The translations under genes and the position numbers were made by a program. Below the pieces are notes generated by a model, which made no database searches, was not told the origin of the DNA, and saw nothing but the letters and a program-made list of their open reading frames with translations. Shown here one piece after another: positions 23,606 through 52,619 of a stretch of DNA of 64,000 bases (position 1 is its first letter; each line of letters opens with the position of its first letter). The DNA comes from Daucus carota subsp. sativus (taxonomy: Eukaryota > Streptophyta > Magnoliopsida > Apiales > Apiaceae), in NCBI RefSeq assembly GCF_001625215.2, contig NC_030388.2:19466058-19530057 (forward strand), in the 5' to 3' direction.

Positions 23606-23613
23606 ACTTAACA

Positions 23614-23690: not shown

Positions 23691-25698
23691 ATATGTGTGT
23701 ATACCAACTTAGATGGTAGATTATAGAATTTTTAATTAAAATCATACAACTATTCATGAATACTGATATATATTAATTAAATTTTAATATTATAAAAAAT
23801 TTAGTTACCTAATTGTAATTTAATAATATAAAAAAGTTATATTTTTTCAAAAACAAATTATTTGAGATTAATTATGACCAAATATATCAGTGCTCTACCT
23901 CATCCACAACTATATACACTATTAGTGAATTCTCACATTCATGCTTTTCTTCCATCCCCTTCCCACCCCTAATTATATATATACACTATTAGTGAATTCT
24001 CACATTCACGCTTTTCTTCCATCCCATTCCCACCCCTTCTCACAACAAGTTTGATTTCTTTTTGGACAATTAGTAATTTTCACCCATCTATTACTATACC
24101 TCCCATCAGATCCATTCTTCAAATCAGATCTCAAATCATACATCAGCCTCAATAAATCAATTTGGACAACAGTCTTATCAATTTATTTGATATTGGTCCA
24201 TTGACATCAGTCCATCTTGTACATTTCATTACATTGTGAGTATGTTGATACATTTACTTTCAAATCTATTTATTTTAGTTAAATTTTCATATTGTTTTTA
24301 ATATTTTTTTCATTTCAAATGCAAATTAAATTCATTCGTCAAATCAGACCTCATATTAGACATCCACCTCAGATCAATCAATTTCAACATCAGTCTTCTC
24401 AATTTATTTGATATTGGTCTACTGACAACTACAGTCGATCCATCTAATACATTTCATTACATAGTGAGTATGTAGATACATTAGTTTAAACTTTTTAATT
24501 TTTTTAATTAATTTTCCCATTATTTTTTAATCACTTTTGTCAAATGATAAGCTTGTAAATTTTGATAAAATCAAGTGATTTTAAGAGTATCGGCTCTATT
24601 TTGTTTTTCTTTTCCCATAGTTTTAAGTATGAAGTATTAAATCTTAATTTTATCATCAAATATTTTATTGTCTTCTTTTTTATCCTATTCAATATCTTAA
24701 AGCTAAAATAAAATGTATCAATTATGAAAATTTTGGATTTAGCATATTAAATATAATATAATATGTATAATTGTATGAATTCTGAATTTTCTCTTTATAA
24801 TTATTAATAAATATGGTGAATCATTACATGTTTATCTAGATCTAAATAATATTATTAATTCATAATTTTCCTTATTTCTTATCCTTTTCAGAGTTTAAGT
24901 TAATTATATTAAGTGATCTTCTTTTTCTATAACAACTTGCACTTTCTTTTAAAATTTTTTTTCTTAACAATTTGGACGGGTTGGTAGTTTTTCTAAATAA
25001 ATAAGTATTATTTCTAAGTTATGTATGAATATAGATATAGACATAAATGTGCATGTATGTATTTTTATATTGAAAGAGAGTATTTTTGAATTAATTTTAA
25101 TTTGAAATACGAGTTTGACGGATAAGTTACTTAGAGTTTCATAGTTCTGTAATAGTTATATGTTCATCATAATATAAAAATAATTTAATATCACTTTCTA
25201 CCAAATAATTTAAGATCTTTAATAACAGTTATTATTTCAGAAATATCATGTGTAAACCAAACCAAACCAAACAAAACATATATATCCGTTATATCCCGGA
25301 TCTGAACAAGGTCAAGGTAAGATGTAGGCAGCCTTGCCACTACCCTTACCTTCTACAGAAATATCATGTCTGTCTTATCTTAAATTTTTCTGCTTTCACC
25401 CCGTTTTCTTAATAATACTCTCCATGCTATTTAAATTACCTTCTAAGTAATGTGTGTTTTATTTCCTAAAAACAACATGGATATCTTCTTAACAAAAAAT
25501 ATAATATATTATTAAGATATTTCCATACCTTAATAATTTACGTGTTGGTTTAGTTTATGATGACATACCTATCAAACCTATGATGTTTTGAGAATTTGAA
25601 TTCCTTCTTGAAGCTTAGTAATAAAATTGAATTAGGAATGGTAAGGTAAGATATGGTTGGTGTGTGATTTGTATTTCACTGTATAATTTTATAGGAAG

Positions 25699-25767
25699 GT
25701 GTCAACTAGGGAAGTGGACATTGCATGGGAACATTGTACCCATGAGGGTGAAGGAAATAAGAAAAGG
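25699..25767 (+). pseudogene. Unit 1: fragment of the BED exon
   Basis: Matches the first 69 bases of exon 1 of the fusion genes ([12 protein letters not shown] and on to KKR), but the start codon is GTG instead of ATG at 25,699. After GAAAAGG at 25,767 the sequence jumps straight into the 3' flank normally found behind the last exon (AAATAACTAGTAAATATGAC). The whole dehydratase gene is therefore deleted between the first exon and the downstream spacer. Not functional. Confidence 0.9.
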
Positions 25768-27900: not shown

Positions 27901-29131
27901 CTAATTGTCATCCCGTTCAATATTTGTATCAGTCACCTTTGTTCCCTAAACCACATTGTTTGGTCCAGCTTATAGTATCATATAAGCAAGAAACCACTGG
28001 TCTTGTAATTGGTACCGCCGAAGACCACACTGGTGTAATCGGAAGTGAAAAAGCTGTTGGATTATATAACTTGCACGTAGTTGCAAGAGGAATCCAGGTA
28101 AAATTTCTTGAATCATCTGGTTTCCTTATTTACGTTTAGTCTAGGAGGTTATATTATATATGTTCATTAAATATGACATTTATAATATATGATTTCTTGG
28201 TGCAGGACGGGAATAAGGGAAGTATTACCCGTTTCTGGATACTAGCTAGAGATCCTATAGTTCTTACAAATGACGGGTCCTTCAAAGTATGTAGCGGAAA
28301 ATTCTTTAAACTTTTCATCAGTAATTTCTTTTTTTAAATTTCCCATGCAACTTCTTTGTGTTCCTTTTCAGACGAGCCTTGTATTCACTCTGCGAGAAAG
28401 CCCTAAAGATGTGCATAAAACCCTTTCAGTATTTGCAACCAGTAAAACATTTAAGCTCACAAAGGTAGGCATGCTACAAAGGAAACTAAATCAATTATGT
28501 GAAGCTAGTGAATATGTACAGGTTAAAAGTTGTTTCTCTTGGTCGTGGTTGTAGGTTGTGAGCAGGCCTCAAAGAAATATACTACCGAATGTGGCTGATA
28601 GATCCCCTGAAGGGTGAGTAAGTTGTATTTTTCTTAGTCCACTGTTTTCAGGATTCGAAGAAAATATATGATTTATTTGACATCTTTTTTTGTAAACACT
28701 AACATAATTAAACAGTTCGTAATTCGGCTTATATGTAACGGTCAAATTCATTAATGCAGGTGCTTTGATTATCTCTTTTATGTTGATTTTGAAGTCAGGG
28801 AAGAGTCAGATGTAGAGTATGTTGTCACAAAACTTAAGGTTTGGTTTACTCCACCTAAACACATTAAATTGGAAGACATATCATTGGTAAAAATGGCCCC
28901 TAACTTCGCACTGTAGGAATCACCGACCAGTTACCTACTTGTCCATAATAACAAATTTTGCTTCCACCCAGAAAATATAGACCTCATAACCATGATGATC
29001 TGTATAAATCTCTCACATAGGTAAATTGTTATGGTAATCTGATTATATGTTAAATGTTACAGGATTTCGCTACATCGGTTCGTATACTTGGATCATATCC
29101 AATAATAGAAGTGAACAATGGTGCTCGATGA
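27901..29131 (+). pseudogene. Unit 2: 5'-truncated dehydratase gene (exons 5-10)
   Basis: Exons match the complete units: 27987-28097, 28206-28286, 28372-28464, 28555-28613, 28760-28838 and 29063-29131. They encode the second half of the PDT domain ([25 protein letters not shown]) and the ACT domain ([29 protein letters not shown]), ending in TGA. Each exon is open and its splice sites are normal, but there is no BED exon, no first half of the catalytic domain and no upstream start. It cannot make a working enzyme. Small differences from the other units (for example P to L in DPIVLTND) show it is a separate copy. Confidence 0.92.
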
Positions 29132-32100
29132 CCGACTCGATTAATTGGCTACTCGACCAATTCAATATATTTTTGTAAATTAATTTGTTGATCTTATTTT
29201 CTTCTTGTTATTCAGACGTATATTACAATCTGTTAAATTATTATTTTTAAATACAACTTTATTTACATATAATAAAACTAAAAACAATTATGTTAAAGTG
29301 CGTTTAATTTTTTTTGGAGTTGTTTGACAAACAAACCCAAAACTAATACTCATTCCATGAAAAAAACGAAATTTTTATCTCACTGCGAGCATGACAAAGA
29401 ATTATATATAACCGCAAGAGCATGGTCTCTAATGTATGGTCTCTATTGTTTGTAGACGGACAAATGCGAGTTGTATGCTCAAGAACACATGTTCGATCAA
29501 TTTTGGTTCAATTACCATCAGTTGTCTCCGAGGGGGAACATGCATGTGGATGTTTTAAAATAACTAGTAAATATGACTAAATTAACACTAATTAAATTAA
29601 CTAGAAAATAAAAGAGATTTAAATAAGAAACTTTCAACCACGAAAAAAATTGTAGTATCTCACTTCGCCTCCCACTCTCCCCCTCTCACCCTAATAATCT
29701 CCCAAATCTAATACTATACAATAATAATAATATCCGATCCTATATCTAATAATAAAAGCATTTTTAATATTTTATTCAGTATACAAATAGAGCTCCAAAC
29801 GAAATAGGATTCTTCATCAAAATTCAGAGATTTCTTTTATCCTCCATTTACGGGCCTTTTCAATTGGATTGTTCTTATTACATCACCTCTCAATTAAATA
29901 TAACTTCATAACCTTCGTGTGGGCGGTAAGATCGTCGAAATACGACATCTGAAACTTAAGATATGGCAGAAATAGATTTGAACTGTGTATAGCCTAATAA
30001 CTCCTATTTATCATTTAATTTAGCTCCCAAATAGCTACCTTTTTGAGTTGGACCACAAAGTTTTGAGGAAGCTTCAAAAGTAAAATCTTGGAGAAAGTCC
30101 GTGGTTGAAGAATTGAAAATGATTGAGAAAAATCACAACTGAGGCTTTGTAGAACGTCTTTAAAAAGACAATGTAGTTGGATTTAAATGAGTTTGTCACA
30201 TAAGTATTCTTCTAAGGAAGTAGAACCAAGGTGGTTTTTCAATGTGTAAAAATGAATCAAACATCCTCTAATTTTTAAAAAGGATGATTGTTTTATAGTA
30301 ACGGGACTATTCTAAAGATAAAAGAGACAACATTAAAAATCATAATAACGGTTCAATGTGTATTTTTTGTACTCGCACTTTACATCAAACAAAAATTGGG
30401 TACTCAGGACTTTATTCTATATTTTGATATAGAGAACTGGTTGAAAAATGCATCTTACGTTAATAAAGAAGTTCAACCAAATTAACACAATACATCAAAT
30501 TGTCATGAATAGAAATATTCATTTATCAATTGCTCGAGTTTAGACTCCTATATTATAAATGGTGCTTTGAATAAAAGTTAAGAACATATATAAAATAATA
30601 TGTATGTATACCAACTTGGATGATGACTTCAAAAAAAAAAAAAAAACTTGGATGATAGATTAAAGAATGTTTGACCAAAACCGTACAATTATTCATAAAT
30701 ATTGATACATAATAATTAAATTTTAATAATGGTAAATATTGATACATAATAATTAAATTTTAATAATGGTAAAAAATTTACTAAAATAATTTTAATTCAA
30801 TAATAAAATAAATAGTTACAAATTTTCACAAAAGTAAAGTATTATTTGAGATTAATTATGTCCAAATATATCAGTTCTCTACCTCAGTCCACAATTATAT
30901 ATACTCTATTAGTGAGTTCTCACATTCACGCTTTTCTTCCATCCCCTTTTCACCCCCTTCTCACAATTGGTCTGATTTCACATTCACGCTTTTCTTCCAT
31001 CCCCTTTTCACCCCTTCTCACAATAGGTCTGATTTCACATTCAAGCTTTTCTTCCATCCCCTTTTCACCCCCTTCTTACAATAGGTCTGATTTCTTTTTG
31101 GACGATCAGTAATTTTCACCCCTCCATTGCAATTCCTCCCATAGATCCATTACTCAAATCAACCTCAAATCAGACATCCCTCAATAAATCAATTTCAACC
31201 GCAGTGTTATCAATTTATTTGATATTGGTCCGTTGACATCAGTCCATCTTATACATTTCATTGCACTGTGAGTATGTAGATACCTTTACTTTAAAATTTA
31301 TATTTTTTAAGTTAATTTTCTCATTGTTTTTAATTATTTTGTCAATTCAAATGCAAATTAGATCCATTCCTCAAATCAGACATCCACATATGATCAATCA
31401 ATTTCTCAATTTATTTGATTTTGTTCCATTGACGTCCATCCATCTAATACATTTTATTACAGTATGAGTAAGTAGATAAATTTGTTTAAAATTTATAATA
31501 TTTTAAATAATTTTCCCAATATTTTTAATCATTTTTGTCAATTCAAATGATAAGCATGTAAATTTTGGTCAAGTGATTTTAAGATTATCCCCTCTATTTT
31601 GTTTTTCTTTTCCCATAGTTTTAAGTATGAAGTATTAAATTTTTATTTTTGTCATCAAAGATTATATTGTCTTCTTTTTATCATAGTCAATATTTTAAAA
31701 TTAAAATGAAATTAATCAGCTGTCAAATTTTTGGATTTAGCATTTTAAATATAATATAATATGTATAATTGTGATAATTGTGAATTTTTCATCTATAATT
31801 ATTGATAAATCTCGTGAATTGTTTCATTTTATCTAGATCTAAACAATATCATTAATTCTTGAATTTATTTATTTCTTATCCATTTGAAAGTTTAAATTAA
31901 TTATATTAAGTGATCTTCTTCTTTTATCACAATTCAGGACTTGCATTTTCTAATTTTAAATTTATCCTTTACAATTTGGACGGGTTGGTAGTTTTTCTAA
32001 ATAAATAAGTATTATTTTTAAGTTATATATACGAATATAGATATAGATATGAATGTGTATGTATTTTTATATTGAAAGAGAGTATTTTTAAATTAATTTG

Positions 32101-32246
32101 AAATAGGATTTTGATCCATAAGATCTATGATGTTTTGTGAATTTTAATTCTTTCTTGAGATTTACTAATAAAATTGAATTAGGGATGGTAAGTTAAGATA
32201 TGGTCAAGTGTATGATTTGTATTTCACCGTATAATTTCATAGGAAG
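29132..32246 (+). repeat. Array spacer and inferred promoter/leader of unit 3
   Basis: Complete spacer of about 3.1 kb: 3' flank, AT-rich middle, pyrimidine minisatellite (30,921-31,093), then an inferred leader exon ending near 31,267 at CACTGTGAGTATG and a leader intron that ends at TTTCATAG just before GAAGATG at 32,243. The same arrangement is kept in units 4, 5 and 6. There are no open reading frames of note; a 17-base A run at 30,632-30,648 is specific to this copy. Confidence 0.75.
30921..31093 (+). repeat. Pyrimidine-rich minisatellite, 3 copies (unit 3)
   Basis: Copies begin at 30,921, 30,979 and 31,036. The units are 57-58 bp and differ by one to three bases. Confidence 0.9.
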
Positions 32247-34705
32247 ATGTCAACTAGGGAAGTGGACATTGCATGGGAACATTGCACCCATGAGGGTGAA
32301 GGAAATAAGAAAAGGGCAAAGTGTAACTACTGCTCAAAGTTGGTATTGGGCATCAACAGGTTTAAACAACACCTTGCTAGAGTAGGGACAGATGTTACAG
32401 GTTGCCCTAATGTACCTGCACAAGTGTCCCATGAAACACTACAGAGGCTTGTCCAAAAGTTTGAGCAAAAGGCTGGCCAGGTTTCATTTGGAAGGGCACA
32501 ATCAAGAGACCACCAACCAAATGCTAGTGGTCACCCAGTTTCCACCTTTCCCCACCTTAAAGTAGCTTATAAGGTATAATTACAACTTGTATGATGTAGC
32601 CATCACCACAAAACATATAATACACCAATACACACTATAATATTATTGATGCACTTGGACACACCAGATTAAGACTTTTAATTACTTAGCATAATTATTG
32701 CTTTAATGGTGATATGCAGGGAATAATAGGAGCATGCAGTGAGGAAGCTGTACTTGCAGTTTATCCTGGTTGTCAGTTAGATCCTTGCGAGACATCTGAG
32801 AATGCAGTGCAGGTTCTTCACATTTCTACTAATTACTACTTCAACGAACTGTTGCAGTTATTTTATCATCTTTACCCAATATATGTGTGAAGTAACTTAA
32901 TTTTTACTCTTGAGATTAATAAGTAGGACATGATATCTTGGTAAAAATAAGAAATCATTTTAAGTTTATACAACCTTATATGATACATAATATTTCCCAT
33001 GCATAGTCCAGCTCAGTTAATATACCAATACCCAGTTTCGTAATTTTCTTTTTAAATAAATAATGCAGGCAGTTGAATCTCATGGGGCTGACAGAGTAGT
33101 CATTCCCATAGAAAATTCATTGGGTGGGAGTTTTGCTGAAAACTACGATTTAATCAATTCTCACCAGCTGCACATTGTTGGTGAAGTTGAAGTATCCACC
33201 AACTTCTGCCTCCTAGCACGACCTGGCGTCAAACTAGAACAGTTGAAACGTGTTCTAGGACATCCACAGGTCAGCAATAATCTATGATGTAATGTCACAA
33301 TTATATATCGTCTTATATAGTTCAATACTTTCAATTTATCAGTTGACAACTTGTTGCTCATCGGCAGGCACTTGGGCAAACCAAAACGTTCCTGGGTAAC
33401 CTGGGTGTTGAAAAAGACATTGTTATTGATGATCCATATTATGCTCAGTTGATCTCCAGTTATCTAATTGTCATCCCGTTCAATATTTGTATCAGTCACC
33501 TTTGTTCCCTAAACCACATTGTTTGGTCCAGCTTATACTATCATATAAGCAAGAAACCACTGGTCTTGTAATTGGTACTGCCGAAGACCACACTGGTGTA
33601 ATCGGAAGTGAAAAAGCTGTTGGATTATATAACTTGCACGTAGTTGCAAGAGGAATCCAGGTAAAATTTCTTGAATCATCTGGTTTCCTTATTTACGTTT
33701 AGTCTAGGAGGTTATATTATATATGTTCATTAAATATGACATTTATAATATATGATTTCTTGGTGCAGGACGGGAATAAGGGAAGTACTACCCGTTTCTG
33801 GATACTAGCTAGAGATCCTATAGTTCCTACAAATGACGGGTCCTTCAAAGTATGTAGCGGAAAATTCTTTAAATTTTTCATCAGTAATTTCTCGTTTTAA
33901 ATTTCCTATGCAAGTTCTTTGTCTTCCTTTTCAGACCAGCCTTGTATTCACTCTGCGAGAAAGCCCTAAAGATGTGCATAAAACCCTTTCAGTATTTGCA
34001 ACCAGTAAAACAGTTAAGCTCACAAAGGTAAGCATGCTACAAAGGAAACTAAATCAATTATGTGAAGCTAGTGAATATGTACAGGTTAAAAGTTGTTTCT
34101 CTTGGTCGTGGTTGTAGGTTGTGAGCAGGCCTCAAAGAAATATACTACCGAATGTGGCTGATAGATCCCCTGAAGGGTGAGTAAGTTGTATTTTTCTTAG
34201 TCCACTGTTTTCAGGATTCGAAGAAAATATATAATTTATTTGACATCTTTTTTTGTAACACTAACAGAATTAAACAGTTCGTAATTCGGCTTATAAGTAA
34301 CGGTCAAATTCATTAATGCAGGTGCTTTGATTATCTCTTTTATGTTGATTTCGAAGTCAGGGAAGAGTCAGATGTAGAGTATGTTGTCACAAAACTTAAG
34401 GTTTGGTTTACTCCACCTAAACACATTAAATTGGAAGACATATCATTGATCTTATTCAAAGGAAAAATGGCTCCTAACTTCACACTATAGGAATCACGGA
34501 CCAGTTACCTACTTGTCCATAATAACAAATTTTGCTTCCACCCAGAAAATATAGGGCTCATAACCATGATGATCAGTATAAATCTCTCACATAAGTAAAT
34601 TGTTATGGTAATCTAATTATATGTTAAATGTTGCAGGATTTCGCTACATCGGTTCGTATACTTGGATCATATCCGATAGTAGAAGTCAACAATGGTGCTC
34701 GATGA
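32247..34705 (+). pseudogene. Unit 3: BED finger-arogenate/prephenate dehydratase fusion gene, splice donor lost
   Basis: Ten exons correspond to the intact units: 32247-32573, 32720-32812, 33069-33269, 33368-33448, 33550-33660, 33769-33849, 33935-34027, 34118-34176, 34322-34400 and 34637-34705. Joined, they would be 397 codons without a stop. However, the donor after exon 4 reads CAG-TT (33,449) where all sister copies have CAG-GT. Intron 4 is 101 nt, so its retention shifts the frame and meets TAA early in exon 5. The product would then lack the TRF motif and the ACT domain. Domains are as in unit 4: BED finger (C26, C29, H42, C53), PDT domain from residue 104, ACT domain from about 295. 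It may still be transcribed; I call it a probable pseudogene because of this single change. Confidence 0.85.
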
Positions 34706-35980
34706 CCGACTCGATTAATTGGCTACTCGACCAATTCAATATATTTTTGTAAATTAATTTGTTGATCTTATTTTCTTCATGTTATTCAGACGTATATTAC
34801 AATCTTTTAAATTATTTTTTTTAAATACAACTTTATTTACATATAATAAAACTAAAAACAATTATGTTAAAGTGCGTTTAATTTTTTTTTGGAATTGTTT
34901 GACAAACAAATCCAAAACTAATACTCATTCCATGAAAAAAAACAAAAAAATTATCTCACTGCGAGCATGACAAAAGATTATATATAACCGCAACAGCATG
35001 GTCTCTACTGTTTGTAGACGGACAAATGCGAGTTGTATGCTCAAGAACACATGTTCGATCAATTTTGGTTCAATTACCATCAGTTGTCTCCGAGGGTGAA
35101 CATGCATGTGGATGTTTTAAAATAACTAGTAAATATGACTAAATTAACACTAATTAAATTAACTAGAAAATATAAGAGATTTAAATAAGAAACCTTCAAC
35201 CACGAAAAAATTGTAGTATCTCACTTCGCCTCCCACTCTCCCCCTCTCACCCTAATAATATCCCAAGTCTAATACTATACAATAATAATAATATCCGATC
35301 CTATATCTAATAATAAAAGTATTTTTAATATTTTATTCAGTATACAAATAGAGCTCCAAACGAAATAGGATTCTTCATCAAAATTCAGAGCTTTCTTTTA
35401 TCCTCGATTTACGGGCCTTTTCAATTGGATTGTTCTTATTAAATCACCTCTCAATTAAATATAACTTCGTAACCTTCGTGTGGGGGGTAAGATCGTCGAA
35501 ATACGACATCTGAAACTTAAGATATGGCAGAAATAGAGTTGAACCGTGTATAGCCTAATAACTCCTATTTCTCATTTAATTTAGCTCCCAAATAGCTACC
35601 TTTTTCAGTTGGACCGCAAAGATTTTGAGGAAGCTTCAAAAGTAAAATCTTGGAGAAAGTAGTGGTTGAAGAATTGAAAATGATTGAGAAAAATCACAAC
35701 GGATTTAAATGAGTTTGTCACATAAGTATTCTTCTAAGGGAGTAGAACCAAGGTGGTTTTTCAATGTGTAAAAATGAATCAAACATCCTCTAATTTTTAA
35801 AAAGGATGATTTTTTTATAGTAACCGGACTATTCTAAAGATAAAAGAGACAACATTAAAAATCATAATAATGGTTCAATGTGTATTTTTTGTACTCGCAC
35901 TTTACATCAAATAAAAATTGGGTACTCAGGATTTTACTCTATATTTTGATATAGAGAACCGGTTGAAAAGTGCATCTTAA

Positions 35981-36363
35981 GAGCATCTCCAGCAGTGTCT
36001 TAGTGTCTTCCTTATAAATATTATAAAATATTGAATCCTAGTGATTTAGGACAAGATTTTGTATTTCAACTCCAACAATGATCCTTATAATTCATTCCTT
36101 ATTATTATTATAATAATAAATTTGGAAAGAGATTGATAAAAGATGGAAGGAAGAGAGAGAAAATAAGTTACAATAAGAGAGAGAAATGATTTTTTTATTA
36201 AAGAAATCAAATAAGGCATGGCTAGTGGTGCCTTATTAATAAGGCATGGAAGGAGGATCCTAGTGATTTAAGGCACCTCTAAGACACTGCTGGAGCACTA
36301 ATTTATGTCACATTCCTTATAATTGGACTTAGGACATGAAATAGGAAGCTGCTGGAGTTGCTC
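35981..36363. mobile_element. MITE with TAA target duplication (empty sites in sister units)
   Basis: A 383 bp insertion starting GAGCATCTCCAGCAGTG and ending CTGCTGGAGTTGCTC, so the TIRs are near-perfect complements. It is flanked by TAA at 35,978-35,980 and 36,364-36,366. The sister spacer at about 41,805 reads GCATCTTAAGTTAATAAAG with a single TAA, proving the insertion and a 3 bp duplication. This fits the PIF/Harbinger (Tourist-like) group. Non-coding. Confidence 0.92.
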
Positions 36364-36759
36364 TAAGTTAATAAAGAAGTTCAACCAAATTAACACAATA
36401 CATCAAATTATCATGAATAGAAATATCCATTTATCAATTGCTCGAGTTTAGACTCCTATATTATAAATGGTGCTTTGAATACAATTTAAGTACATATATA
36501 ATATAATATGTATGTATACCAACTTGGATGGTAGATTAAAAAATGTTTGACCAAAACCGTGCAATTATTCATAAATAATGATACATAATAATGAAATTTT
36601 AATAATGGTTAAAAATTTACTTAAATAATTGTAATTTAATAATAAAATAAATAGTTACAAATTTTCACAAAAGTAAAGTATTATTTAAGATTAATTATGT
36701 CCAAATATATCAGTTCTCTACCTCAGTCCACAATTATATATACACTATTAGTGAGTTCT

Positions 36760-36931
36760 CACATTCACGCTTTTCTTCCATCCCCTTCTCACCCCTTCTC
36801 ACAATAAGTCTGATTTCACATTCACGCTTTTCTTCCATCCCCTTTTCACCCCTTCTCACAATAGGTCTGATTTCACATTCACGCTTTTCTTCCATCTCTT
36901 TTTCAACCCATTCTCACAATAGGTCTGATTT
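36760..36931 (+). repeat. Pyrimidine-rich minisatellite, 3 copies (unit 4)
   Basis: Copies begin at 36,760, 36,817 and 36,874, with a period of 57 bp. Confidence 0.9.
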
Positions 36932-38075
36932 CTTTTTGTACGATCACTAATTTTCACCCCTCCATTGCAATTCCTCCCATAGATCCATTACTCAAATCAA
37001 CCTCAAATCAGACATCCCTCGATAAATCAATTTCAACGGCAGTCTTATCAATTTATTTGTTATTGGTCCATTGACATCAGTCCATCTTATACATTTCATT
37101 GCACTGTGAGTACGTATATACCTTTACTTTAAAATTTATATTTTTTTAGTTAATTTTCTCATTGTTTTTAATTATTTTGTCAATTCAAATGCAAATTAGA
37201 TCCATTCCTCAAATCAGACATCCACATCTGATCAATTAATTTCTCAATTTATTTGATTTTGTTCCATTGACGTCCATCCGTCATTACACTAGAGTATGAG
37301 TATGTAGATACATTTGTTTAAACTTTATAGTTTTTTAAATAATTTTCCCAATATTTTAATCATTTTTGTCAATTCAAATGATAAGCATGTAAATTTTGGT
37401 CAAGTGATTTTAAGATAATCCCCTCTATTTTGTTTTTTTTCCCATAGTTTTAAGTATGAAGTATTAAATTTATATTTTTGTCACAAATATTATATTGTCT
37501 TCTTTTTTATCCTAGTCAATATTTTAGAATTAAAATGAAATTAATCAGTTATCAAATTTTTGGATTTAGCATTTTAAATATAATATAATATGTATAATTG
37601 TGATAATCTTGAATTTTTCATCTATAATTATTGATAAATCTCGTGAATTATTTCATTTTGTCTAGAACTAAACAATATCATTAATTCATAAATTTACTTA
37701 TTTCTTATCCATTTGAAAGTTTAAATTAATTATATTAAGTGATCTTCTTCTTCTATCACAATTCAGAACTTGCATTTTCTAATTTTAAATTTATCCCTTA
37801 CAATTTGGACGGGTTGGTAGTTTTTCTAAATAAATAAGTATTATTTTTAAGTTATATATACGAATATAGATATAGATATGAATGTGTATGTATTTTTATA
37901 TTGAAAGAGAGTATTTTTAAATTAATTTGAAATAGGATTTTGATCCATAAGATCTATGATGTTTCGAGAATTTTAATTCCTTCTTGAGATTTACTAATAA
38001 AATTGAATTAGGGATGGTAAGTTAAGATATGGTCAAGTGTATGATTTGTATTCCACTGTATAATTTCATAGGAAG

Positions 38076-40535
38076 ATGTCAACTAGGGAAGTGGACATTG
38101 CATGGGAACATTGCACCCATGAGGGTGAAGGAAATAAGAAAAGGGCAAAGTGTAACTACTGCTCAAAGTTGGTATTGGGCATCAACAGGTTTAAACAACA
38201 CCTTGCTCGAGTAGGGACAGATGTTACAGGTTGCCCTAATGTACCTGCACAAGTGTCCCATGAAACACTACAGAGGCTTGTCCGAAATTTTGAGCAAAAG
38301 GCTGGCCAGGTTTCATTTGGAAGGGCACAATCAAGAGACCACCAACCAAATGCTAGTGGTCACCCAGTTTCCACCTTTCCCCACCTTAAAGTAGCTTATA
38401 AGGTATAATTACAACTTGTATGATGTAGCCATCACCACAAAACATATAATACACCAATACACACTATAATATTATTGATGCACTTGGACACACCAGATTA
38501 AGACTTTTAATTACTTAGCATAATTATTGCTTTGATGGTGATATGCAGGGAATAATAGGAGCATGCAGTGAGGAAGCTGTACTTGCAGTTTATCCTGGTT
38601 GTCAGTTAGATCCTTGCGAGACATCTGAGAATGCAGTGCAGGTTCTTCACATTTCTACTAATTACTACTTCAACGAACTGTTGCAGTTATTTTATCATCT
38701 TTACCCAATATATGTGTGAAGTAACTTAATTTTTACTCTTGAGATTAATAAGTAGGACTTGATATCTTGGTAAAAATAAGAAATCATTTTAAGTTTATAC
38801 AACCTTATATGATACATAATATTTCCCATGCATAGTCCAGCTCAGTTAATATACCAATACCCAGTTCCGTAATTTTCTTTTTAAATAAATAATGCAGGCA
38901 GTTGAATCTCATGGGGCTGACAGAGTAGTCATTCCCATAGAAAATTCATTGGGTGGGAGTTTTGCTGAAAACTACGATTTAATCAATTCTCACCAGCTGC
39001 ACATTGTTGGTGAAGTTGAAGTATCCACCAACTTCTGCCTCCTAGCACGACCTGGCGTCAAACTAGAACAGTTGAAACGTGTTCTAGGACATCCACAGGT
39101 CAGCAATAATCTATGATGTAATGTCACAATTATATATCGTCTTATATAGTTCAATACTTTCAATTTATCAATTGACAGCTTGTTGCTCATCGGCAGGCAC
39201 TTGGGCAAACCAGAACGTTCCTGGGTAACCTGGGTGTTGAAAAAGACATTGTTATTGATGATCCATATTATGCTCAGGTGATCTCCAGTTATCTAATTGT
39301 CATCCCGTTCAATATTTGTATCAGTCACCTTTGTTCCCTAAACCACATTGTTTGGTCCAGCTTATACTATCATATAAGCAAGAAACCACTGGTCTTGTAA
39401 TTGGTACCGCCGAAGACCACACTGGTGTAATCGGAAGTGAAAAAGCTGTTGGATTATATAACTTGCACGTAGTTGCAAGAGGAATCCAGGTAAAATTTCT
39501 TGAATCATCTGGTTTCCTTATTTACGTTTAGTCTAGGAGGTTATATTATATATGTTCATTAAATATGACATTTATAATATATGATTTCTTGGTGCAGGAC
39601 GGGAATAAGGGAAGTACTACCCGTTTCTGGATACTAGCTAGAGATCCTATAGTTCCTACAAATGACGGGTCCTTCAAAGTATGTAGCGGAAAATTCTTTA
39701 AATTTTTCATCAGTAATTTCTCGTTTTAAATTTCCTATGCAAGTTCTTTGTCTTCCTTCTCAGACCAGCCTTGAATTCACTCTGCGAGAAAGCCCTAAAG
39801 ATGTGCATAAAACCCTTTCAGTATTTGCAACCAGTAAAACAGTTAAGCTCACAAAGGTAAGCATGCTACAAAGGAAACTAAATCAATTATGTGAAGCTAG
39901 TGAATATGTACAGGTTAAAAGTTGTTTCTCTTGGTCGTGGTTGTAGGTTGTGAGCAGGCCTCAAAGAAATATACTACCGAATGTGGCTGATAGATCCGCT
40001 GAAGGGTGAGTAAGTTGTATTTTTCTTAGTCCACTGTTTTCAGGATTCGAAGAAAATATATAATTTATTTGACATATTTTTTTGTAAACACTAACAGAAT
40101 TAAACAGTTCGTAATTCGGCTTATAAGTAACGGTCAAATTCATTAATTCAGGTGCTTTGATTATCTCTTTTATGTTGATTTCGAAGTCAGGGAAGAGTCA
40201 GATGTAGAGTATGTTGTCACAAAACTTAAGGTTTGGATTACTCCACCTAAACACATTAAATTGGAAGACATATCATTGATCTTATTCAAAGTAAAAATGG
40301 CTCCTAACTTCACACTATAGGAATCACCGACCAGTTACCTACTTGTCCATAATAACAAATTTTGCTTCCACCCAGAAAATATAGAGCTCATAACCATGAT
40401 GATCAGTATAAATCTCTCACATAAGTAAATTGTTATGGTAATCTGATTATATGTTAAATGTTGCAGGATTTCGCTACATCGGTTCGTATACTTGGATCAT
40501 ATCCGATAGTAGAAGTCAACAATGGTGCTCGATGA
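38076..40535 (+). CDS. Unit 4: BED zinc finger-arogenate/prephenate dehydratase fusion, intact
   Basis: Exons 38076-38402, 38549-38641, 38898-39098, 39197-39277, 39379-39489, 39598-39678, 39764-39856, 39947-40005, 40152-40230 and 40467-40535 give 397 aa with consistent phases. Residues 1-60 form a BED-type finger as in hAT transposases: W10, C26-x2-C29, H42, C53 (CNYC, FKQHLA, GCPNVP). After a linker, HLKVAYK joins the PDT domain ([21 protein letters not shown] at 152-162, [19 protein letters not shown] with TRF at 279-281) and an ACT domain ([27 protein letters not shown]). PDT/ADT enzymes decarboxylate and dehydrate prephenate or arogenate toward phenylalanine in plastids. Here no transit peptide is visible. 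The many introns and C-terminal motifs look ADT2-like. In the ACT domain ESRP is VSRP and the GALV-type site is SPKDVHK, so Phe control may be lost. Activity is unproven. Confidence 0.85.
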
Positions 40536-43534
40536 CCGACTCGATTAATTGGCTACTCGACCAATTCAATATATTTTTGTAAATTAATTTGTTGATCTTA
40601 TTTTCTTCATGTTATTCAAACGTATATTACAATCTTTTAATTTTTTTTTAATACAGCTTTATTTACATATAATAAAACTAAAAACAATTATGTTAAAGTG
40701 CGTTAAATTTTTTTTTTTGGAATTGTTTGACAAACAAATACAAAACTAATACTCATTCCATGAAAAAAAACAAAAAATTTATCACACCGCGAGCATGACA
40801 AAAGATTATATATAACCGCAAGAGCATGGTCTCTACGGTTTGTAGACGGACAAATGCGAGTTGTATGCTCAAGAACACATGTTCGATCAATTTTGGTTCA
40901 ATTACCATCAGTTGTCTCCGAGGGTGAACATGCATGTGGTTGTTTTAAAATAACTAGTAAATATGACTAAATTAACACTAATTAAATTAACTAGAAAATA
41001 TATGAGATTTAAACATGAAACCTTCAACCACGAAAAAAATTGTAGTATCTCACTTCGCCTCCCACTCTCCCCCTCTCACCCTAATAATATCCCAAGTCTA
41101 ATACTATACAATAATAATAATATCCGATCCTATATCTAATAATAAAAGTATTTTTAATATTTTATTCAGTATACATATAGAGCTCCAAACGAAATAGGAT
41201 TCTTCATCAAAATTCAGAGCTTTCTTTTATCCTCCATTTACGGGCCTTTTCAATTGGATTGTTCTTATTACATCACCTCTCAATTAAATATAACTTCATA
41301 ACCTTCGTGTGGGGGGTAAGATCGTGAAATACGACATCTGAAACTTAAGATATGGCAGAAATAGAGTTGAACCGTGTATAGCCTAATAACTCCTATTTCT
41401 CATTTAATTTAGCTCCCAAATAGCTACCTTTTTCAGTTGGACCACAAAGATTTTGAGGAAGCTTCAAAAGTAAAATCTTGGAGAAAGTAGTGGTTGAAGA
41501 ATTGAAAATGATTGAGATAAATCACAACGGATTTAAATGAGTTTGTCACATAAGTATTCTTCTAAGGGAGTAGAACGAAGGTGGTTTTTCAATGTGTAAT
41601 AATGAATCAAACATCCTCTAATTTTAAAAAAGGATGATTTTTTTATAGTAACGGGACTATTCTAAAGATAAAAGAGACAACATTAAAAATCATAATAATG
41701 GTTCAATGTGTATTTTTTGTACTCGCACTTCACATCAAATAAAAATTGGGTACTCAGGACTTTACTCTATATTTTGATATAGAGAACCGGCTGAAAAGTG
41801 CATCTTAAGTTAATAAAGAAGTTCAACCAAATTAACACAATACATCAAATTGTCATGAATAGAAATATCCATTTATTAGTTGCTCGAGTTTAGACTCCTA
41901 TATTATAAATGGTGCTTTGAATACAATTTAAGTACATATATAATATAATATGTATGTATACCAACTTGGATGGTAGATTAAAGAATGTTTGACCAAAACC
42001 GTGCAATTATTCATAAATAATGATACATAATAATCAAATTTTAATAATGGTTAAAAATTTACTTAAATAATTGGAATTTAATAATAAAATAAATAGTTAC
42101 AAATTTTCACAAAAGTAAAGTATTATTTAAGATTAATTATGTCCAAATATATCAGTTCTCTACCTCAGTCCACAATTATATATACACTATTAGTGAGTTC
42201 TCACATTCACGCTTTTCTTCCATCCCCTTCTGACCCCTTCTCACAATAGGTCTGATTTCACATTCACGCTTTTCTTCCATCCCCTTCTCACCCTTTCTCA
42301 CAATAGGTCTGATTTCACATTCACGCTTTTCTTCCATCTCTTTTTCAACCCATTCTCACAATAAGTCTGATTTCTTTTTGTACGATCAGTAATTTTCACC
42401 CCTCCATTGCAATTCCTCCCATAGATCCATTACTCAAATCAACCTCAAATCAGACATCCCTCGATAAATCAATTTCAACGGCAGTCTTATCAATTTATTT
42501 GATATTGGTCCATTGACATCAGTCCATCTTATACATTTCATTGCACTGTGAGTACGTAGATACCTTTACTTTAAAATTTATATTTTTTTAGTTAATTTTC
42601 TCATTGTTTTTAATTATTTTGTCAATTCAAATGCAAATTAGATCCATTCCTCAAATCAGACATCCACATCTGATCAATCAATTTCTCAATTTATTTGATT
42701 TTGTTCCATTGACGTCCATCCGTCTGATACATTTCATTACACTATGAGTATGAGTATGTAGAAACATTTGTTTAAACTTTATAATTTTTTAAATAATTTT
42801 CCCAATATTTTTAATCATTTTTGTCAATTCAAATGATAAGCATGTAAATTTTGGTCAAGTGATTTTAAGATAATCCCCTCTATTTTGTTTTTTTTCCCCA
42901 TAGTTTTAAGTATGAAGTATTAAATTTTTATTTTTGTCAACAAATATTATATTGACTTCTTTTTTATCCTAGTCAATATTTTAAAATTAAAATAAAATCA
43001 ATCAGTTATCAAATTTTTGGATTTAGCATTTTAAATATAATATAATATGTATAATTGTGATAATTGTGAATTTTTCATCTATAATTATTGATAAATCTCG
43101 TGAATTATTTCATTTTGTCTGGAACTAAACAATATCATTAATTCATAAATTTACTTATTTCTTATCCATTTGAAAGTTTAAATTAATTATATTAAGTGAT
43201 CTTCTTCTTCTATCACAATTCAGAACTTGCATTTTCTAATTTTAAATTTATCCCTTACAATTTGGACCGGTACTGGTAGTTTTTCTAAATAAATAAGTAT
43301 TATTTCTAAGTTATATATACGAAGATAGATATAGATATGAATGTGTATGTATTTTTTATATTGAAAGAAAGTATTTTTAATTAATTTGAAGTAGGATTTT
43401 GATCCATAAGATCTATGATGTTTTGAGAATTTTAATTCCTTCTTGAGATTTACTAATAAAATTGAATTAGGGATGGTAAGTTAAGATATGGTCAAGTGTA
43501 TGATTTGTATTTCACTGTATAATTTCATAGGAAG
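40536..43534 (+). repeat. Array spacer and inferred promoter/leader of unit 5
   Basis: A 3.0 kb spacer nearly identical to that of unit 4 but without the MITE, so it serves as the empty site. The minisatellite is at 42,202-42,372. The inferred leader donor is CACTGTGAGTACG near 42,547 and the leader acceptor ends at 43,530. Confidence 0.75.
42202..42372 (+). repeat. Pyrimidine-rich minisatellite, 3 copies (unit 5)
   Basis: Copies begin at 42,202, 42,259 and 42,316, with a period of 57 bp. Confidence 0.9.
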
Positions 43535-46006
43535 ATGTCAACTAGGGAAGTGGACATTGCATGGGAACATTGCACCCATGAGGGTGAAGGAAATAAGAAA
43601 AGGGCAAAGTGTAACTATTGCTCAAAGTTGGTATTGGGCATCAACAGGTTTAAACAACACCTTGCTAGAGTAGGGACAGATGTTACAGGTTGCCCTAATG
43701 TACCTGCACAAGTGTCCCATGAAACACTACAGAGGCTTGTCCAAAAGTTTGAGCAAAAGGCTGGCCAGGTTTCATTTGGAAGGGCACAATCAAGAGACCA
43801 CCAACCAAATGCTAGTGGTATCCCAGTTTCCACCTTTCCCCACCTTAAAGTAACTTATAAGGTATAATTACAAGTTGTATGATGTAGCCATCACCACAAA
43901 ACATATAATACACCAATACACACTATAAATATCGAATATATTGATGCACTTGGACACACCAATAATTAAGACTTTTAATTACTTAGCATAATTATTGCTT
44001 TGGTGGTGATATGCAGGGAATAATAGGAGCATGCAGTGAGGAAGCTGTACTTGCAGTTTATCCTGGTTGTCAGTTAGATCCATGCGAGACATCTGAGAAT
44101 GCAGTGCAGGTTCTTCACATTTCTACTAATTACTACTTCAACGAACTGTTGCAGTTATTTTATCATCTTTACCCAATATATGTGTGAAGTAACTTAATTT
44201 TTACTCTTGAGATTAATAAGTAGGACATGATATCTTGGTAAAAATAAGAAATCATTTTAAGTTTATACAACCTTATATGATACATAATATTTCCCATGCA
44301 TATATAGTCCAGCTCAGTTAATATACCAATACCCGGTTTCGTAATTTTCTTTTTAAATAAATAATGCAGGCAGTTGAATCTCATGGGGCTGACAGAGTAG
44401 TCATTCCCATAGAAAATTCATTGGGTGGGAGTTTTGCTGAAAACTACGATTTAATCAATTCTCACCAGCTGCACATTGTTGGTGAAGTTGAAGTATCCAC
44501 CAACTTCTGCCTCCTAGCACGACCTGCCGTCAAACTAGAACAGTTGAAACGTGTTCTAGGACATCCACAGGTCAGCAATAATCTATGATGTGATGTCACA
44601 ATTATATATCGTCTTATATAGTTCAATACTTCAATTTATCAATTGACAACTTGTTGCTCATCGGCAGGCACTTGGGCAAACCAAAACGTTCCTGGGTAAC
44701 CTGGGTGTTGAAAAAGACATTGTTATTGATGATCCATATTATGCTCAGGTGATCTCGAGTTATCTAATTGTCATCCCGTTCAATATTTGTATCAGTCACA
44801 TTTGTTCCCTAAACCACATTGTTTGGTCCAGCTTATACTATCATATAAGCAAGAAACCACTGGTCTTGTAATTGGTACTGCCGAAGACCACACTGGTGTA
44901 ATCGGAAGTGAAAAAGCTGTTGGATTATATAACTTGCACGTAGTTGCAAGAGGAATCCAGGTAAAATTTCTTGAATCATCTGGTTTCCTTATTTACGTTT
45001 AGTCTAGGAGGTTATATTATATATGTTCATTAAATATGACATTTATAATATATGATTTCTTGGTGCAGGACGGGAATAAGGGAAGTACTACCCGTTTCTG
45101 GATACTAGCTAGAGATCCTATAGTTCCTACAAATGACGGGTCCTTCAAAGTATGTAGCGGAAAATTCTTTAAATTTTTCATCAGTAATTTCTTGTTTTAA
45201 ATTTCCTATGCAAGTTCTTTGTCTTCCTTTTCAGACCAGCCTTGTATTCACTCTGCGAGAAAGCCCTAAAGATGTGCATAAAACCCTTTCAGTATTTGCA
45301 ACCAGTAAAACAGTTAAGCTCACAAAGGTAAGCATGCTACAAAGGAAACTAAATCAATTATGTGAAGCTAGTGAATATGTACAGGTTAAAAGTTGTTTCT
45401 CTTGGTCGTGGTTGTAGGTTGTGAGCAGGCCTCAAAGAAATATACTACCGAATGTGGCTGATAGATCCCCTGAAGGGTGAGTAAGTTGTATTTTTCTTAG
45501 TCCACTGTTTTCAGGATTCGAAGAAAATATATAATTTATTTGACATCTTTTCTTGTAAACACTAACAGAATTAAACAGTTCGTAATTCGGCTTATATGTA
45601 ACGGTCAAATTCATTAATGCAGGTGCTTTGATTATCTCTTTTATGTTGATTTTGAAGTCAGGGAAGAGTCAGATGTAGAGTATGTTGTCACAAAACTTAA
45701 GGTTTGGTTTACTCCACCTAAACACATTAAATTGGAAGACATATCATTGATCTTATTCAATGTAAAAATGGCCCCTAACTTTGCACGGTAGGAATCACCG
45801 ACCAGTTACCTACTTGTCCATAATAACAAATTTTGCTTCCACCGAGAAAATATAGAGCTCATAACCATGATGATCGGTATAAATCTGTCACATAGGTAAG
45901 TTGTGATGGTAATCTGATTATATGTTAAATGTTACAGGATTTCGCTACATCGGTTCGTATACTTGGATCATATCCAATAATAGAAGTCAACAATGGTGCT
46001 CGATGA
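43535..46006 (+). CDS. Unit 5: BED zinc finger-arogenate/prephenate dehydratase fusion, intact
   Basis: Exons 43535-43861, 44017-44109, 44370-44570, 44668-44748, 44850-44960, 45069-45149, 45235-45327, 45418-45476, 45623-45701 and 45938-46006 give 397 aa. All donors and acceptors are GT/AG and the frame is open to TGA. The BED residues C26, C29, H42 and C53 are kept, as are the PDT motifs ENSLGGS and TRF and the ACT motifs listed for unit 4. Differences from unit 4 are few: HP to IP at residues 96-97, VAYK to VTYK at the domain join, RPG to RPA in exon 3, and KF in place of NF in exon 1. Most differences are single bases, in introns as well as exons, so the copies are young or kept alike by gene conversion. 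With unit 4 this is the best candidate for an expressed gene. Cell location and activity are unknown. Confidence 0.85.
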
Positions 46007-47163
46007 CCGACTCGATTAATTGGCTACTTGACCAATTCAATATATTTTTGTAAATTAATTTGTTGATCTTATTTTCTTCTTGTTATTCAGACGCATATTA
46101 CAATCTGTTAAATTATTTTTTTTAAATACAACTTTATTTACATATAATAAAACTAAAAACAATAATGTTAAAGTGCGTTTTATTTTTTTTGGAGTTGTTT
46201 GACAAACAAATCCAAAACTAATACTCATTCCATGAAAAAAAACAAAAAAATTATCTCACTGCCAGCATGACAAAAAATTATATATAACCGCAAGAGCATG
46301 GTCTCTAGTGTATGGTCTCTACTGTTTGTAGACGGACAAATGCGAGTTGTATGCTCAAGAACACATGTTCGATCAATTTTGGTTCAATTACCATCAGTTG
46401 TCTCCAAGGGTGAACATGCATGTGGATGTTTTAAAATAACTAATAAATATGACTAAATTAACACTAATTAAATTAACTAGAAAATAAAAGAGATTTGAAT
46501 AAAAAACCTTCAACCACGAAAACAATTGTAGTATCTCACTTCGCCTCCCACTCTCCCCCTGTCACCCTAATAATATCGCAAATCTAATACTATACAATAA
46601 TAATAATATCCGATCTTATATCTAATAATAAAAGTATTTTTAATATTTTATTCAGTATACAAATAGAGCTCCAAACGAAATAGGATTCTTCATCAAAATT
46701 CATAGCTTTCTTTTATCCTCGATTTACGGGCCTTTTCAATTGGATTGTTCTTATTACATCACCTCTCAATTAAATATAACTTCATACCTTCGTGTGGGCG
46801 GTAAGATCGTCGAAATACGACATCTGAAACTTAAGATATGGCAGAAATAGAGTTGAACCGTGTATAGCCTAATAACTCCAATTTCTCATTTAATTTAGCT
46901 CCCAAATAGCTACTTTTTTGAGTTGGACCACAAAGTTTTGAGGCAGCTTCAAAAGTAAAATCTTGGAGAAAGTCAGTGGTTGAAGAATTGAAAATTATTG
47001 AGAAAAATCACAACTGAGACTTTGTAGAACGTCCTTAAAAAGACAATGTAGTTGGATTTAAATGAGTTTGTCACATAAGTATTCTTCTAAGGGAGTAGAA
47101 CGAAGGTGGTTTTTCAATGTGTAAAAATGAATCAAACATCCTCTAATTTTTAAAAAAGGATGA
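46007..47163 (+). repeat. Truncated array spacer after unit 5
   Basis: Follows the spacer consensus up to TTTTTAAAAAAGGATGA at 47,163 and then changes to unrelated DNA. The part from about 46,488 to 47,163 is present again at 57,845-59,553 (minus the Helitron and MITE inserted there), so the unrelated block is bounded by duplicated spacer. Confidence 0.8.
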
Positions 47164-49334: not shown

Positions 49335-49857
49335 TTAGCAATTTCCTTGGACCAAAACTGCCTCCCCCATGAAGCCTTGCATTACTACCCTCCATAGATG
49401 ATAAGAAAAAACTTGTAGATATAAAAGCAAAATCTGCCTCTGAGGTGCATCAGCTATAGCCAAAAAATAAAGAACCCAGCCCTTCCAATCCATAGAATAA
49501 TCCATAGTAATCCCGTGAGTCTCGCTCAAATAAACCCGGTGAATCAGTCTAGCATACGGGCAGTTAATAAAAAGGTGATGAGCTGTTTCAAGCCCTCCAA
49601 CACAAAAAATGCAGCTGTTATCAGAAATGACATGACGATCACACAAAACAGATCTAGTAACCACCTTATCAAGACACAACAGCCAAGACAGGAAACAAAA
49701 TCTAGTGATTTTTAACTTACACCAGACCCAAGCAGACCAGGTGCAACTCTCACCCCTGATGCGAATTGAATCCCATATAACTCGAGTGGTGACATGGTTT
49801 GGTTTAACACCCTCCCAACTTATCTGATCAGCTTGGTCTAAATCAAATAAAGGGTAA
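49335..49857 (-). pseudogene. LINE remnant: zinc-binding region of a non-LTR reverse transcriptase
   Basis: The minus-strand frame reads HVTTRVIWDSIRIRGESC, then SWLLCLDKVVTRSVLCDR, then CIFCVGGLETAHHLFINCPY and ends QGFMGEAVLVQGNC. The pattern (W at an exported segment, a RxxL turn, then CxxC...E..HLF..C) is the zf-RVT domain that follows the reverse transcriptase in plant LINEs. The reverse transcriptase and endonuclease parts are missing. A dead 3' piece of an element inserted in reverse relative to the genes. Confidence 0.75.
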
Positions 49858-52619
49858 TACTATTAGACGTAGAATGAATTTGAAAGCGAAAGGATGAAAA
49901 GTCTCTAGCAGCCAATACTATTAGACGAGACAAATAGACAAATAGACCAGATGGAGCTTTCCAATTATAGAATATTGATGATAAGAAGAATATTTGTCAG
50001 TCCTACTCCATAGAATTTAGATAACAATGATTATCACTATTAAAGTTTATCTTACTCTGTTTATATCGGAAACATGTTCCTTATACGACTTCAGTTACCT
50101 TCACCAGAAAAGTGAATGGAGGTTCCGGTCTTTGAGACCTGAAGCCGGGAATCTGTAAATTAGTATGTTGACATCCTGACTTGTATGATGAATCTGGAAA
50201 TGTTTCAGAAGATAGTTTAATTTTTTCCAGAAATAAGAAATGTGATTAATATAATAAACTCTGCCCTTGAGGCCATAGATAGATGGATGAAAAATGGTTG
50301 TTGAAGGATGCTGACATGAACATCCATCTCAGCTGTCAGCAATTAAGAACAAGAAGTTGATAGTCTCTTGGCTACTTAAGATAAATAAAGCAGAGTCCCG
50401 GTCAATACATTAGTCTTTAATTATTGTAGCATTCGACGATGGACAAACAGAGATTAGAATATTGGTAGCATTCAAGACTTTTATCCGCTAACTTGATTAC
50501 ATAATAGTAGTTAAACTAACATTGACGAGATTGAGATGTGCATGCAAGAACGTATGTTGTATCAATGGAAAGCTATTAAACGTAATTCTTTTAGTATATA
50601 TATGTAGATACAGCAACTATACCTGATCAATGGAAAGCACTTACTTCATTCTGTTCTGCTCCATTTTGATGCTTTTCGCCTATACAAATTTGGCAAATGC
50701 AATTGATACTATAACTGTTAATCAAACAATTAGAGATGATGATAACAGCATCATCATGTCGGCTAAAGAAACTTTTCAAATGGGATTCTTTAGCCCTGGT
50801 AATTCAAAGAGTCGGTTTTTGGGCATATGGTACAAAAATATAGCCAATCTGACTGTTGTCTGGGTTGCTAATAGAGACACGCCACTTACTGATACATCAG
50901 GCATGCTCATGATTGACGCTAATGGAGTTTTAGTACTCATTAATGGTGACAATAAAATAATTTGGTCATCCAACTCATCAAATACTGTGATGAGTCCTGT
51001 GGCACAATTGTTAGATACAGGAAATCTTGTGATCAGGTATGCGAATGACAGTTATCCTGAAGATTTCCTCTGGCAGAGTTTTGATCACCTTGGCGATACT
51101 ATTCTACCAGGCAATTACACATATGGAGTCTATCTCATATTCTGGAAAAGCCCGGATGATCCATCTCCAGGCAATTACACATATGGAGTCTATCTAAAAG
51201 GATATCCACAGCGAGTTGTATGGAAAGGTTCAGCTATGAGATTCAGGTTTGGACCATGAAATGGTGTTCAGTTTGGTGGCAAGTCGAATTTGATGCAGAA
51301 TATGGTTTTCACATATGATGTTGTGTCTGACGAAAAGGATTTGTATTACATGTTTAAACTTCTCAATAGTTCTGCTGCGATGAGAATGATCTTAAATTCA
51401 GACGGAGATCTAAAAATTCTTACCCGGACTAACAATATGCAAGGTTGGGATAACACTGTGACTCTACCAACAGATAAATGCGACGACTTTGCTTTATGTG
51501 GGGCATATGGTATTTGTAACATTACTGAGAAAACTTACGGACGTGACATTGTGGGTTTTGGATGGGTTTGAGCCAAAATTTTCAGAAAAATGGAGGTTAG
51601 CTGATCATTCTGATGGTTGTGTTCGCAAATCTAAGTTGTTGTGTGGGAATGAAGATAGTTTTCAGAGTTACTCCAATCTCAAATTTCCAGACACTCAAAA
51701 TTCATGGTTTGATCGAAGTCTGACCCTAGAGGAATGTGCAGCTAAGTGCTTGAAGAACTGTTCATGCACAGCATATGGAAATATTGATGTAAAAGAAGGT
51801 GGAAGTGGATGCTTATTGTGGTTCGGTGACCTGCTTGATATTAGAGAATATCTGGGAAATGTTCAAGATCTTTATGTAAGAAGGGCTGCTGGAGAATTAG
51901 GTGAGTAAAATTAGTCCACTTAATGTTTATAATATCAGTTTAGATTATGATTTTGTTCTAAAATTTCATATGCACAGGAAGAAGTACAATTAGAAGAGCA
52001 AAGAAGCCGCTGTGGATTATTATCATTGCTGTATTAGTTGTAGTAACAGTATTCCTAAGCCTGTTTATATCAACTGTGTATAAAAAACGAACTCTGAGAA
52101 AAAAAGGTAAGCCAATAATTTACTGATATTAACTCTTTAGCTTCTCAGCACACCAGTGACTTTCATCATGTAGGAAAATATTGTAATTTGTTATTTCTGT
52201 TTTTGTCATTACACAAGTATTAGAGTGTCCTTTTGTTCCCCATTTCTCAGGAAAATTTGGATTTAACGTACAAGGTGAATCAACACATAATAGTGAGAAG
52301 AAAGGTCTGGAATTACCATTGTTTGACTTGGTAACAATTGCTGAAGCAACCAACGATTTCTCGGAAAACAATAAGCTTGGAGAAGGCGGCTTTGGACCTG
52401 TTTACATGGTAATTATATTGATTTACTTATGTTCTGATGAAACATATATTAAGAGTATTTTAGTAACGCAAAATGATCATTATGTTGTTGGAAAAGATAC
52501 CAAGATAGTTATTTTAATTCACTAGCTAGTTTGAATTATACTCTGTCTAGAACAGAGTATTGTCATACAATCATTATATGATGTTAGATTCCATGCACAC
52601 TATTGAATTTTTTTAGTAG

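Follow-up and report, generated by a model that had tools for sequence, protein, structure and literature searches.

A BED zinc finger in place of the leader of an arogenate dehydratase-like protein in carrot: indications of an exon 1 swap and of an amplified, partly decaying family

The stretch of DNA considered here (64,000 nucleotides of carrot contig C8, positions 19466058-19530057; termed the window) contains a tandem array of genes in which an exon for a BED zinc finger reads in frame into the exons of a prephenate dehydratase (PDT) domain and an ACT region, as known from plant arogenate dehydratases (ADTs). A diverged, intact gene with the same architecture is present on contig C5. The BED-ADT gene, made by a swap of exon 1, is older than the window, and the window is a young amplified branch, which is partly decaying. 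Positions of all features are given in Table 1.

Copies 4 and 5 yield spliced frames of 1212 nt including the stop codon, i.e., 403 amino acids each, with exon boundaries, GT-AG signals and reading frames as given in a preliminary description of this DNA. In copy 4 an in-frame stop (38061-38063) lies upstream of exon 1, AG stands directly 5' of GAAGATG, and the other two frames of the spliced sequence contain 21 and 40 stops, base shuffles giving a mean of 24.7. Residues W10, C26, C29, H42 and C53, which had been located correctly before, occur in copies 3, 4 and 5, with matching residues in the C5 gene; presumably they bind zinc, as in the BED family. The BED homology of the copy 4 finger can be regarded as real, because it matches a carrot double-BED frame on contig C7 (52% identity, E 2.3e-12 in the genome search; 55% over 56 residues in a comparison with a small set of frames). 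In the family on contigs C6 and C8, to which the window copies belong, the finger passes straight into PHLKVAYK within a single exon of 327 nt. It is followed in the window copies, and also in the C5 gene, by PDT exons, without the body of a hAT transposase.

The PDT domain of copy 4 was recognized over positions 1-179 of the 181 of PF00800 with 132.9 bits (Pfam cut-off 25.2). The ACT domain, which had been claimed together with a full PDT domain, obtained no Pfam call in copy 4; it is covered by the alignments of the NCBIfam prephenate dehydratase models (equivalog), which span the copy 4 and C5 proteins nearly end to end, under the curated cut-offs. Exon 5 of the window copies (e.g., 39361-39489) carries an insertion of 11 residues in the PDT domain, compared to ordinary carrot ADTs and to the C5 gene.

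The C5 gene has an open frame, and its internal junctions are all GT-AG. The predicted protein begins with the BED finger, followed by a linker (about 140 residues) with many serines (24), glutamines (12) and acidic residues (20), the product of a short exon 2, the PDT domain and the ACT region. Pfam scores were above the cut-offs for both PDT (170.3 bits; cut-off 25.2) and zf-BED (27.5 bits; cut-off 20.6), which places a BED finger and a PDT domain in one chain; the ACT score was below (14.3 bits; cut-off 27). A candidate 5' leader exon upstream of the finger carries in-frame stops; therefore the ATG preceding the finger is the likely start. An intact gene of this diverged type was found once in the genome. 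Its occurrence at a diverged locus supports the earlier statement that the chimera is not an artefact of one locus. No credible match to the C5 finger was obtained among solved structures. The best-scoring match of this finger elsewhere in the genome was the C7 frame of 475 amino acids, which contains two BED fingers in a row; this frame and the other BED frames found are taken here to be of the hAT type.

Exon phases and sizes reveal how the fusion originated. In two ordinary carrot ADTs, L018 (contig C2) and L019 (contig C1), the leader exon ends one base into a codon and is followed by an exon 2 of 68 nt, which ends in VRVAYQ or ARVAHQ. The C5 gene has a BED exon which likewise ends one base into a codon, followed by an exon of 68 nt ending in VKISYK; the sequences of this exon, entered in phase 1, are KPLTATDLTSSPNDGSKVRVAYQ and KPLSASELSFSSNGGAKARVAHQ in the two ordinary ADTs and GPLSVCHVPATLNNSTKVKISYK in the C5 gene. 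The following eight exons are of 93, 201, 81, 96, 78, 90, 68 and 82 nt in all three genes, the last size in L018 (82 nt) being where the alignment ends. The phase-1 join, the 68-nt exon 2 and the eight equal exon sizes together indicate that a BED exon took the place of a leader exon at intron 1, and thus bear out the proposal that the finger replaces the leader region. According to passages of PMC10845154, the leader region of plant ADTs is a plastid transit peptide; the predicted window and C5 proteins would have the BED finger at their N terminus instead.

The genome searched comprised 441,086,747 bases in 11 contigs, and all genome-wide counts of matches are lower bounds. A search with the BED exon (E up to 1e-5) gave at least 29 matches, which we sorted into 14 family members, of which two are partial, 14 other BED frames and the C5 gene. 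With PDT exon 3 (E up to 0.001) at least 22 matches were obtained: ten full or nearly full and five partial members of the family, six ordinary ADT loci and the C5 gene. Family members are located at 19.49-19.67 Mb on C8 and at 11.7-12.0 and 13.6-13.9 Mb on C6; loci L003-L008 overlap loci used elsewhere in the analysis. Six copies with exons 1-10 in place were examined (copies 3, 4, 5 and 6, and L009a and L014 outside the window). Three are open with all splice sites, namely copies 4 and 5 and L009a; copy 3 has lost a donor, and copy 6 and L014 are broken. Further family copies lack exon 1 or more, and several others were read in part only. In L009a, divergence is clearly higher in exons 8-10 and the introns belonging to them than in exons 1-7, as though an older copy had converted this part.

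The earlier tally of copies in the window was right for copies 4 and 5, and had to be amended for the others. Copy 3 also has an open frame, with an altered donor; in copy 6 the finger is deprived of its CxxC by an 18-nt deletion, while exon 3 is 1 nt and exon 7 is 4 nt too short. The remainder consists of one copy reduced to its later exons and of scraps. Units of the array core begin at about 31110, 36948 and 42390, with spacings of 5.8 and 5.4 kb; the first and third are 97.7% and 95.7% identical to the middle one over the longest aligned piece. Related, more broken units flank the core on both sides. At the left end of the array (19000-27300) 64 inverted pairs were present; the 25 listed consisted of TA runs or of imperfect arms rich in A+T and no longer than 71 nt, and none of these 25 was convincing as a terminal inverted repeat.

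Table 1. Location of BED-PDT-ACT copies and of other features; positions refer to the window unless a contig is given
Feature	Position	Strand	Remarks
Copy 4, whole gene	38076-40535	+	ten exons, GT-AG introns, open frame
Copy 4, exon 1	38076-38402	+	BED finger in frame into PHLKVAYK; GT donor
Copy 4, exons 2-10	38549-40535	+	PDT plus ACT; all nine introns of the copy GT-AG
Copy 4, exons 2-4	38549-38641, 38898-39098, 39197-39277	+	splicing of copy 4
Copy 4, exons 5-7	39361-39489, 39598-39678, 39764-39856	+	splicing of copy 4
Copy 4, exons 8-10	39947-40005, 40152-40230, 40467-40535	+	splicing of copy 4
Copy 5	43535-46006	+	ten exons, open 403-residue BED-PDT-ACT frame; all introns GT-AG
Copy 3	32247-34705	+	ten exons, open 403-residue frame; exon 4 donor TT instead of GT (splicing)
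Copy 6	61438-63878	+	exons 1-10 present but broken; 18-nt deletion, frameshift
Copy 2	27969-29131	+	exons 5-10 only; sequence match
Copy 1	25700-25767	+	first 68 nt of BED exon only; sequence match
Three short exon 3 scraps	21431-21649	+	sequence match
Tandem array core	31110-47163	+	repeat alignment
C5 gene	C5:46920474-46925655	-	diverged intact BED-PDT-ACT gene; L016 975-6156; 11 exons, 1569 nt, 522 residues
L009a	C6:12007816-12010291	-	third open copy, 402 residues, all splice sites and stop; L009 3317-5792
Double-BED frame	C7:1125526-1126095	-
NPH3-family matches	4565-6617	+
Amino-acid-permease and SLC12 type matches	16510-19201	+
zf-RVT match	49338-49859	-
B_lectin and PAN_2 matches	50627-51905	+

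The following course of events appears probable to us, with some reserve. As the exon structure and sequence of the C5 gene show, the leader exon of an intron-bearing ADT gene gave way to a BED exon, the join being at intron 1 in phase 1. One lineage of the chimera would be represented by the intact, diverged C5 gene. Another was amplified on C6 and C8, the window holding part of the C8 array; in this C6/C8 family the linker, the intron separating the finger from the short exon 2, and most of that exon would have disappeared, which is the simplest interpretation of its structure. Without the leader exon the protein would be expected in the cytosol or the nucleus. Its finger would be a binding domain for DNA or for some other protein, and its PDT-ACT part would act as a ligand-binding module or as a much altered enzyme. 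To judge from their open frames, copies 4 and 5 could make such a protein, the other window copies being broken or lacking a splice site.

Several observations weigh against this explanation. The finger of copy 4 reached only 12.9 bits with zf-BED, under the Pfam cut-off of 20.6, though it does match the double-BED frame on C7. The explanation would be in keeping with the finding that no ADT-like leader exon or old linker was detected in the window (best E 0.34 over five queries), but this search is weak and of low power, since leader peptides vary much. In the BED-half trees (14 or 16 sequences, about 70 residues) the C5 gene and the family were not grouped with support. Synonymous distances to the C5 gene are near saturation, and copies 4 and 5 differ from each other by 5, 5 and 6 substitutions at codon positions 1, 2 and 3, i.e., without bias.

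The last point bears on the most serious alternative, to which we would give nearly an even chance: that the array in the window consists of dead or dying, functionless copies, that only the C5 gene, if any, works, and that tandem amplification carried the chimera along by chance. Besides the missing codon-position bias between copies 4 and 5, the failure of three of the six full-exon copies, the incomplete state of the others, and the alteration of about 33% of deeply conserved PDT positions in the family speak for it. On the other hand, L009a differs from copies 3, 4 and 5 at 17-21 of 800 sites at codon positions 1 and 2, at 20-22 of 400 at position 3, and at 73-78 of 1244-1245 intron sites (for copy 3: 17/800, 22/400 and 73/1244). 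Positions 1 and 2 thus change less than position 3 (one-sided Fisher tests, p 0.002, 0.027 and 0.007 for copies 3, 4 and 5) and less than introns (p below 0.0002), although these are not three independent comparisons. A large part of the signal comes from exons 8-10, and tests exon by exon were mostly non-significant. Broken copies give the same picture against L009a; therefore the constraint belongs to the ancestor and not to each copy. Comparisons of copy 4 with copy 5 (positions 1 and 2, 10/808; introns, 30/1247; p 0.041) and of copy 3 with copy 5 (5/808 and 30/1246; p 0.001) likewise show fewer changes in exons than in introns. Values for third positions are just as low, however (6/404 and 4/404, respectively), and the difference is therefore not clear protein-level constraint. 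By Nei-Gojobori counts, nonsynonymous (dN) and synonymous (dS) distances between the C5 gene and copy 4 were 0.385 and 1.49 for the PDT half and 0.52 and 1.95 for the BED half; between the C5 gene and L018 they were 0.243 and 1.57. From these sequence comparisons we read a past constraint on the lineage, and none that would be convincing for recent times within the array. The C5 gene is the best candidate for a working gene, ahead of the window copies, because copies 4 and 5 show no codon-position bias and several array copies are broken.

Whether the fusion arose once was approached with phylogenies of each half, which the preliminary description had suggested, and only the PDT half gave a supported answer. 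In the PDT-half maximum-likelihood tree the C5 gene and the family were sisters with support of 99.5/98 (96.8/98 when the bacterial sequence 2qmx was added); neither L015, a partial native ADT, nor copy 3 was included in the PDT trees or in the PDT table of dN and dS. For the BED half, 35 places were obtained in a search for BED frames, and four new ones were fetched; these trees were made without copy 5 and most array copies, and the one used for the approximately unbiased (AU) test also without the BED frames of L053 and L055. Without a supported grouping of the BED halves, the fusion cannot be taken as proven to have happened only once. Two separate captures, with the C5 gene and the C6/C8 family taking their BED exons independently from different sources, nevertheless appear unlikely. 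They would account for the different finger spacing (CxxC-x13-H in C5, x12 in the family), for the different join of finger and PDT (an intron and a 68-nt exon in C5, neither in the family), and for the best BED tree, which keeps the two apart; a grouping of C5 with the C7 fingers was not rejected (AU p 0.377). However, one clade of the C5 and family fingers was not rejected either (p 0.257), and captures by two genes with such well-supported sister PDT halves would be less parsimonious.

Several features of the PDT-ACT half bear on its possible function. The TRF triad, which is critical for activity according to passages of PMC10845154 and PMC11980547, is kept as TTRF in copy 4 and as ITRF in C5, and the ENS motif is kept in both lineages. 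Bacterial 2qmx and five ordinary carrot ADTs all agree at 93 positions; with these as reference, 20/93 are changed in C5 and 31/93 in copy 4 when one gap is counted (30/92 when it is not), i.e., 21-33%, including the T of the DTAGAA segment, which is lost in both lineages. In leave-out controls with ordinary ADTs, where the close pair was removed from the reference if one exists, 6-12 of 102-112 positions were changed (5.7-10.7%). Passages of PMC10845154 describe ESRP and GALV as phenylalanine-binding motifs. All five ordinary carrot ADTs have ESRP, for which C5 has DCRP and the family VSRP; the GALV-type site reads GELY in C5 and KDVH in the family, compared to GILF, GVLF, GTLF, SVLF and SVLF in ordinary ADTs. 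An ACT region with ESRP and GALV-type phenylalanine motifs was thus found in neither lineage. A powdery-mildew PDT with NSRP is described, in passages of PMC11980547, as active and not inhibited by aromatic amino acids, so the changed ESRP speaks for lost feedback and not by itself for lost catalysis.

A plain ADT or PDT enzyme outside the plastid, serving a cytosolic phenylalanine route, with the finger as a mere cap in place of the transit peptide, seems improbable to us. The retained TRF and ENS motifs would fit it, and non-plastid forms (PhADT3, AtADT5, AtADT6) are discussed in passages of PMC10845154; the loss of deeply invariant positions and the altered ESRP do not fit, and the residues taken as zinc ligands are kept in both lineages though a cap needs none. 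We therefore consider an altered response to ligands, or a loss of catalysis, more likely than an ordinary enzyme, as far as sequence motifs can tell. A location outside the plastid is expected for a protein with no leader exon, and it is the presence of the finger alone that suggests DNA binding. A speculative and rather improbable extension is that the exon swap made a regulator that binds DNA and detects phenylalanine, arogenate or prephenate by its PDT-ACT part, which would be a nutrient-responsive nuclear factor of the carrot lineage or of flowering plants more widely. It is very improbable that the BED exon lies outside the gene, as the remains of an adjacent transposon that happen to be open: an AG does precede its ATG and similar BED frames are common in the genome, but the exon closes with the final residues of the PDT lead-in, has a proper donor where the ADTs have their conserved intron, and the same order of BED and PDT recurs at the diverged C5 locus.

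Other matches in the window include a zf-RVT match between copies 5 and 6, probably a piece of a non-LTR retroelement, and B_lectin and PAN_2 in neighbouring frames, probably a lectin receptor gene interrupting the array. Outside the array, two adjacent long frames have NPH3-family matches, and the amino-acid-permease and SLC12 type matches probably represent one cation-chloride cotransporter gene.

The arrays on two chromosomes offer a natural series of intact and broken copies of a fusion whose birth is readable from exon phases, and in which the exchange of a leader for a finger would change targeting and function in one step. In the full texts of one open-access library "prephenate dehydratase" never occurred together with "BED zinc finger" or "hAT transposase", nor "arogenate dehydratase" with "BED-type", which is consistent, for this library and with plant protein databases outside the search, with the preliminary statement that no BED-PDT protein had been described. 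Compared to the intron-bearing ADTs of carrot (L018, L019), the chimera shares the PDT and ACT parts, the TRF triad and, in C5, the 68-nt exon 2, the phase-1 intron and the eight exon sizes; it differs by the BED exon in place of the leader exon, the altered ESRP and the changes at 21-33% of conserved PDT positions. With plant hAT-type BED proteins, which include the SLEEPER family, it has in common the CxxC, H and C at matching places, with 48-58% identity to the C7 fingers, but it lacks the transposase body, and its finger is joined to a metabolic enzyme. Arabidopsis ADT5, a plastid protein also seen in nuclei, for which a regulatory role was proposed, is a precedent for an ADT with a nuclear pool, although the available passages of that report mention no zinc finger (PMC5444438); with the chimera one could test directly if an ADT is able to turn into a nuclear sensor, as has been suggested before for ADT5. 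Host genes are known to have captured transposon zinc fingers in other cases, e.g., in the BED-NLR immune receptors (PMC7761493); here the partner of the captured BED finger is not an NLR but an ADT, a core enzyme of amino acid metabolism.

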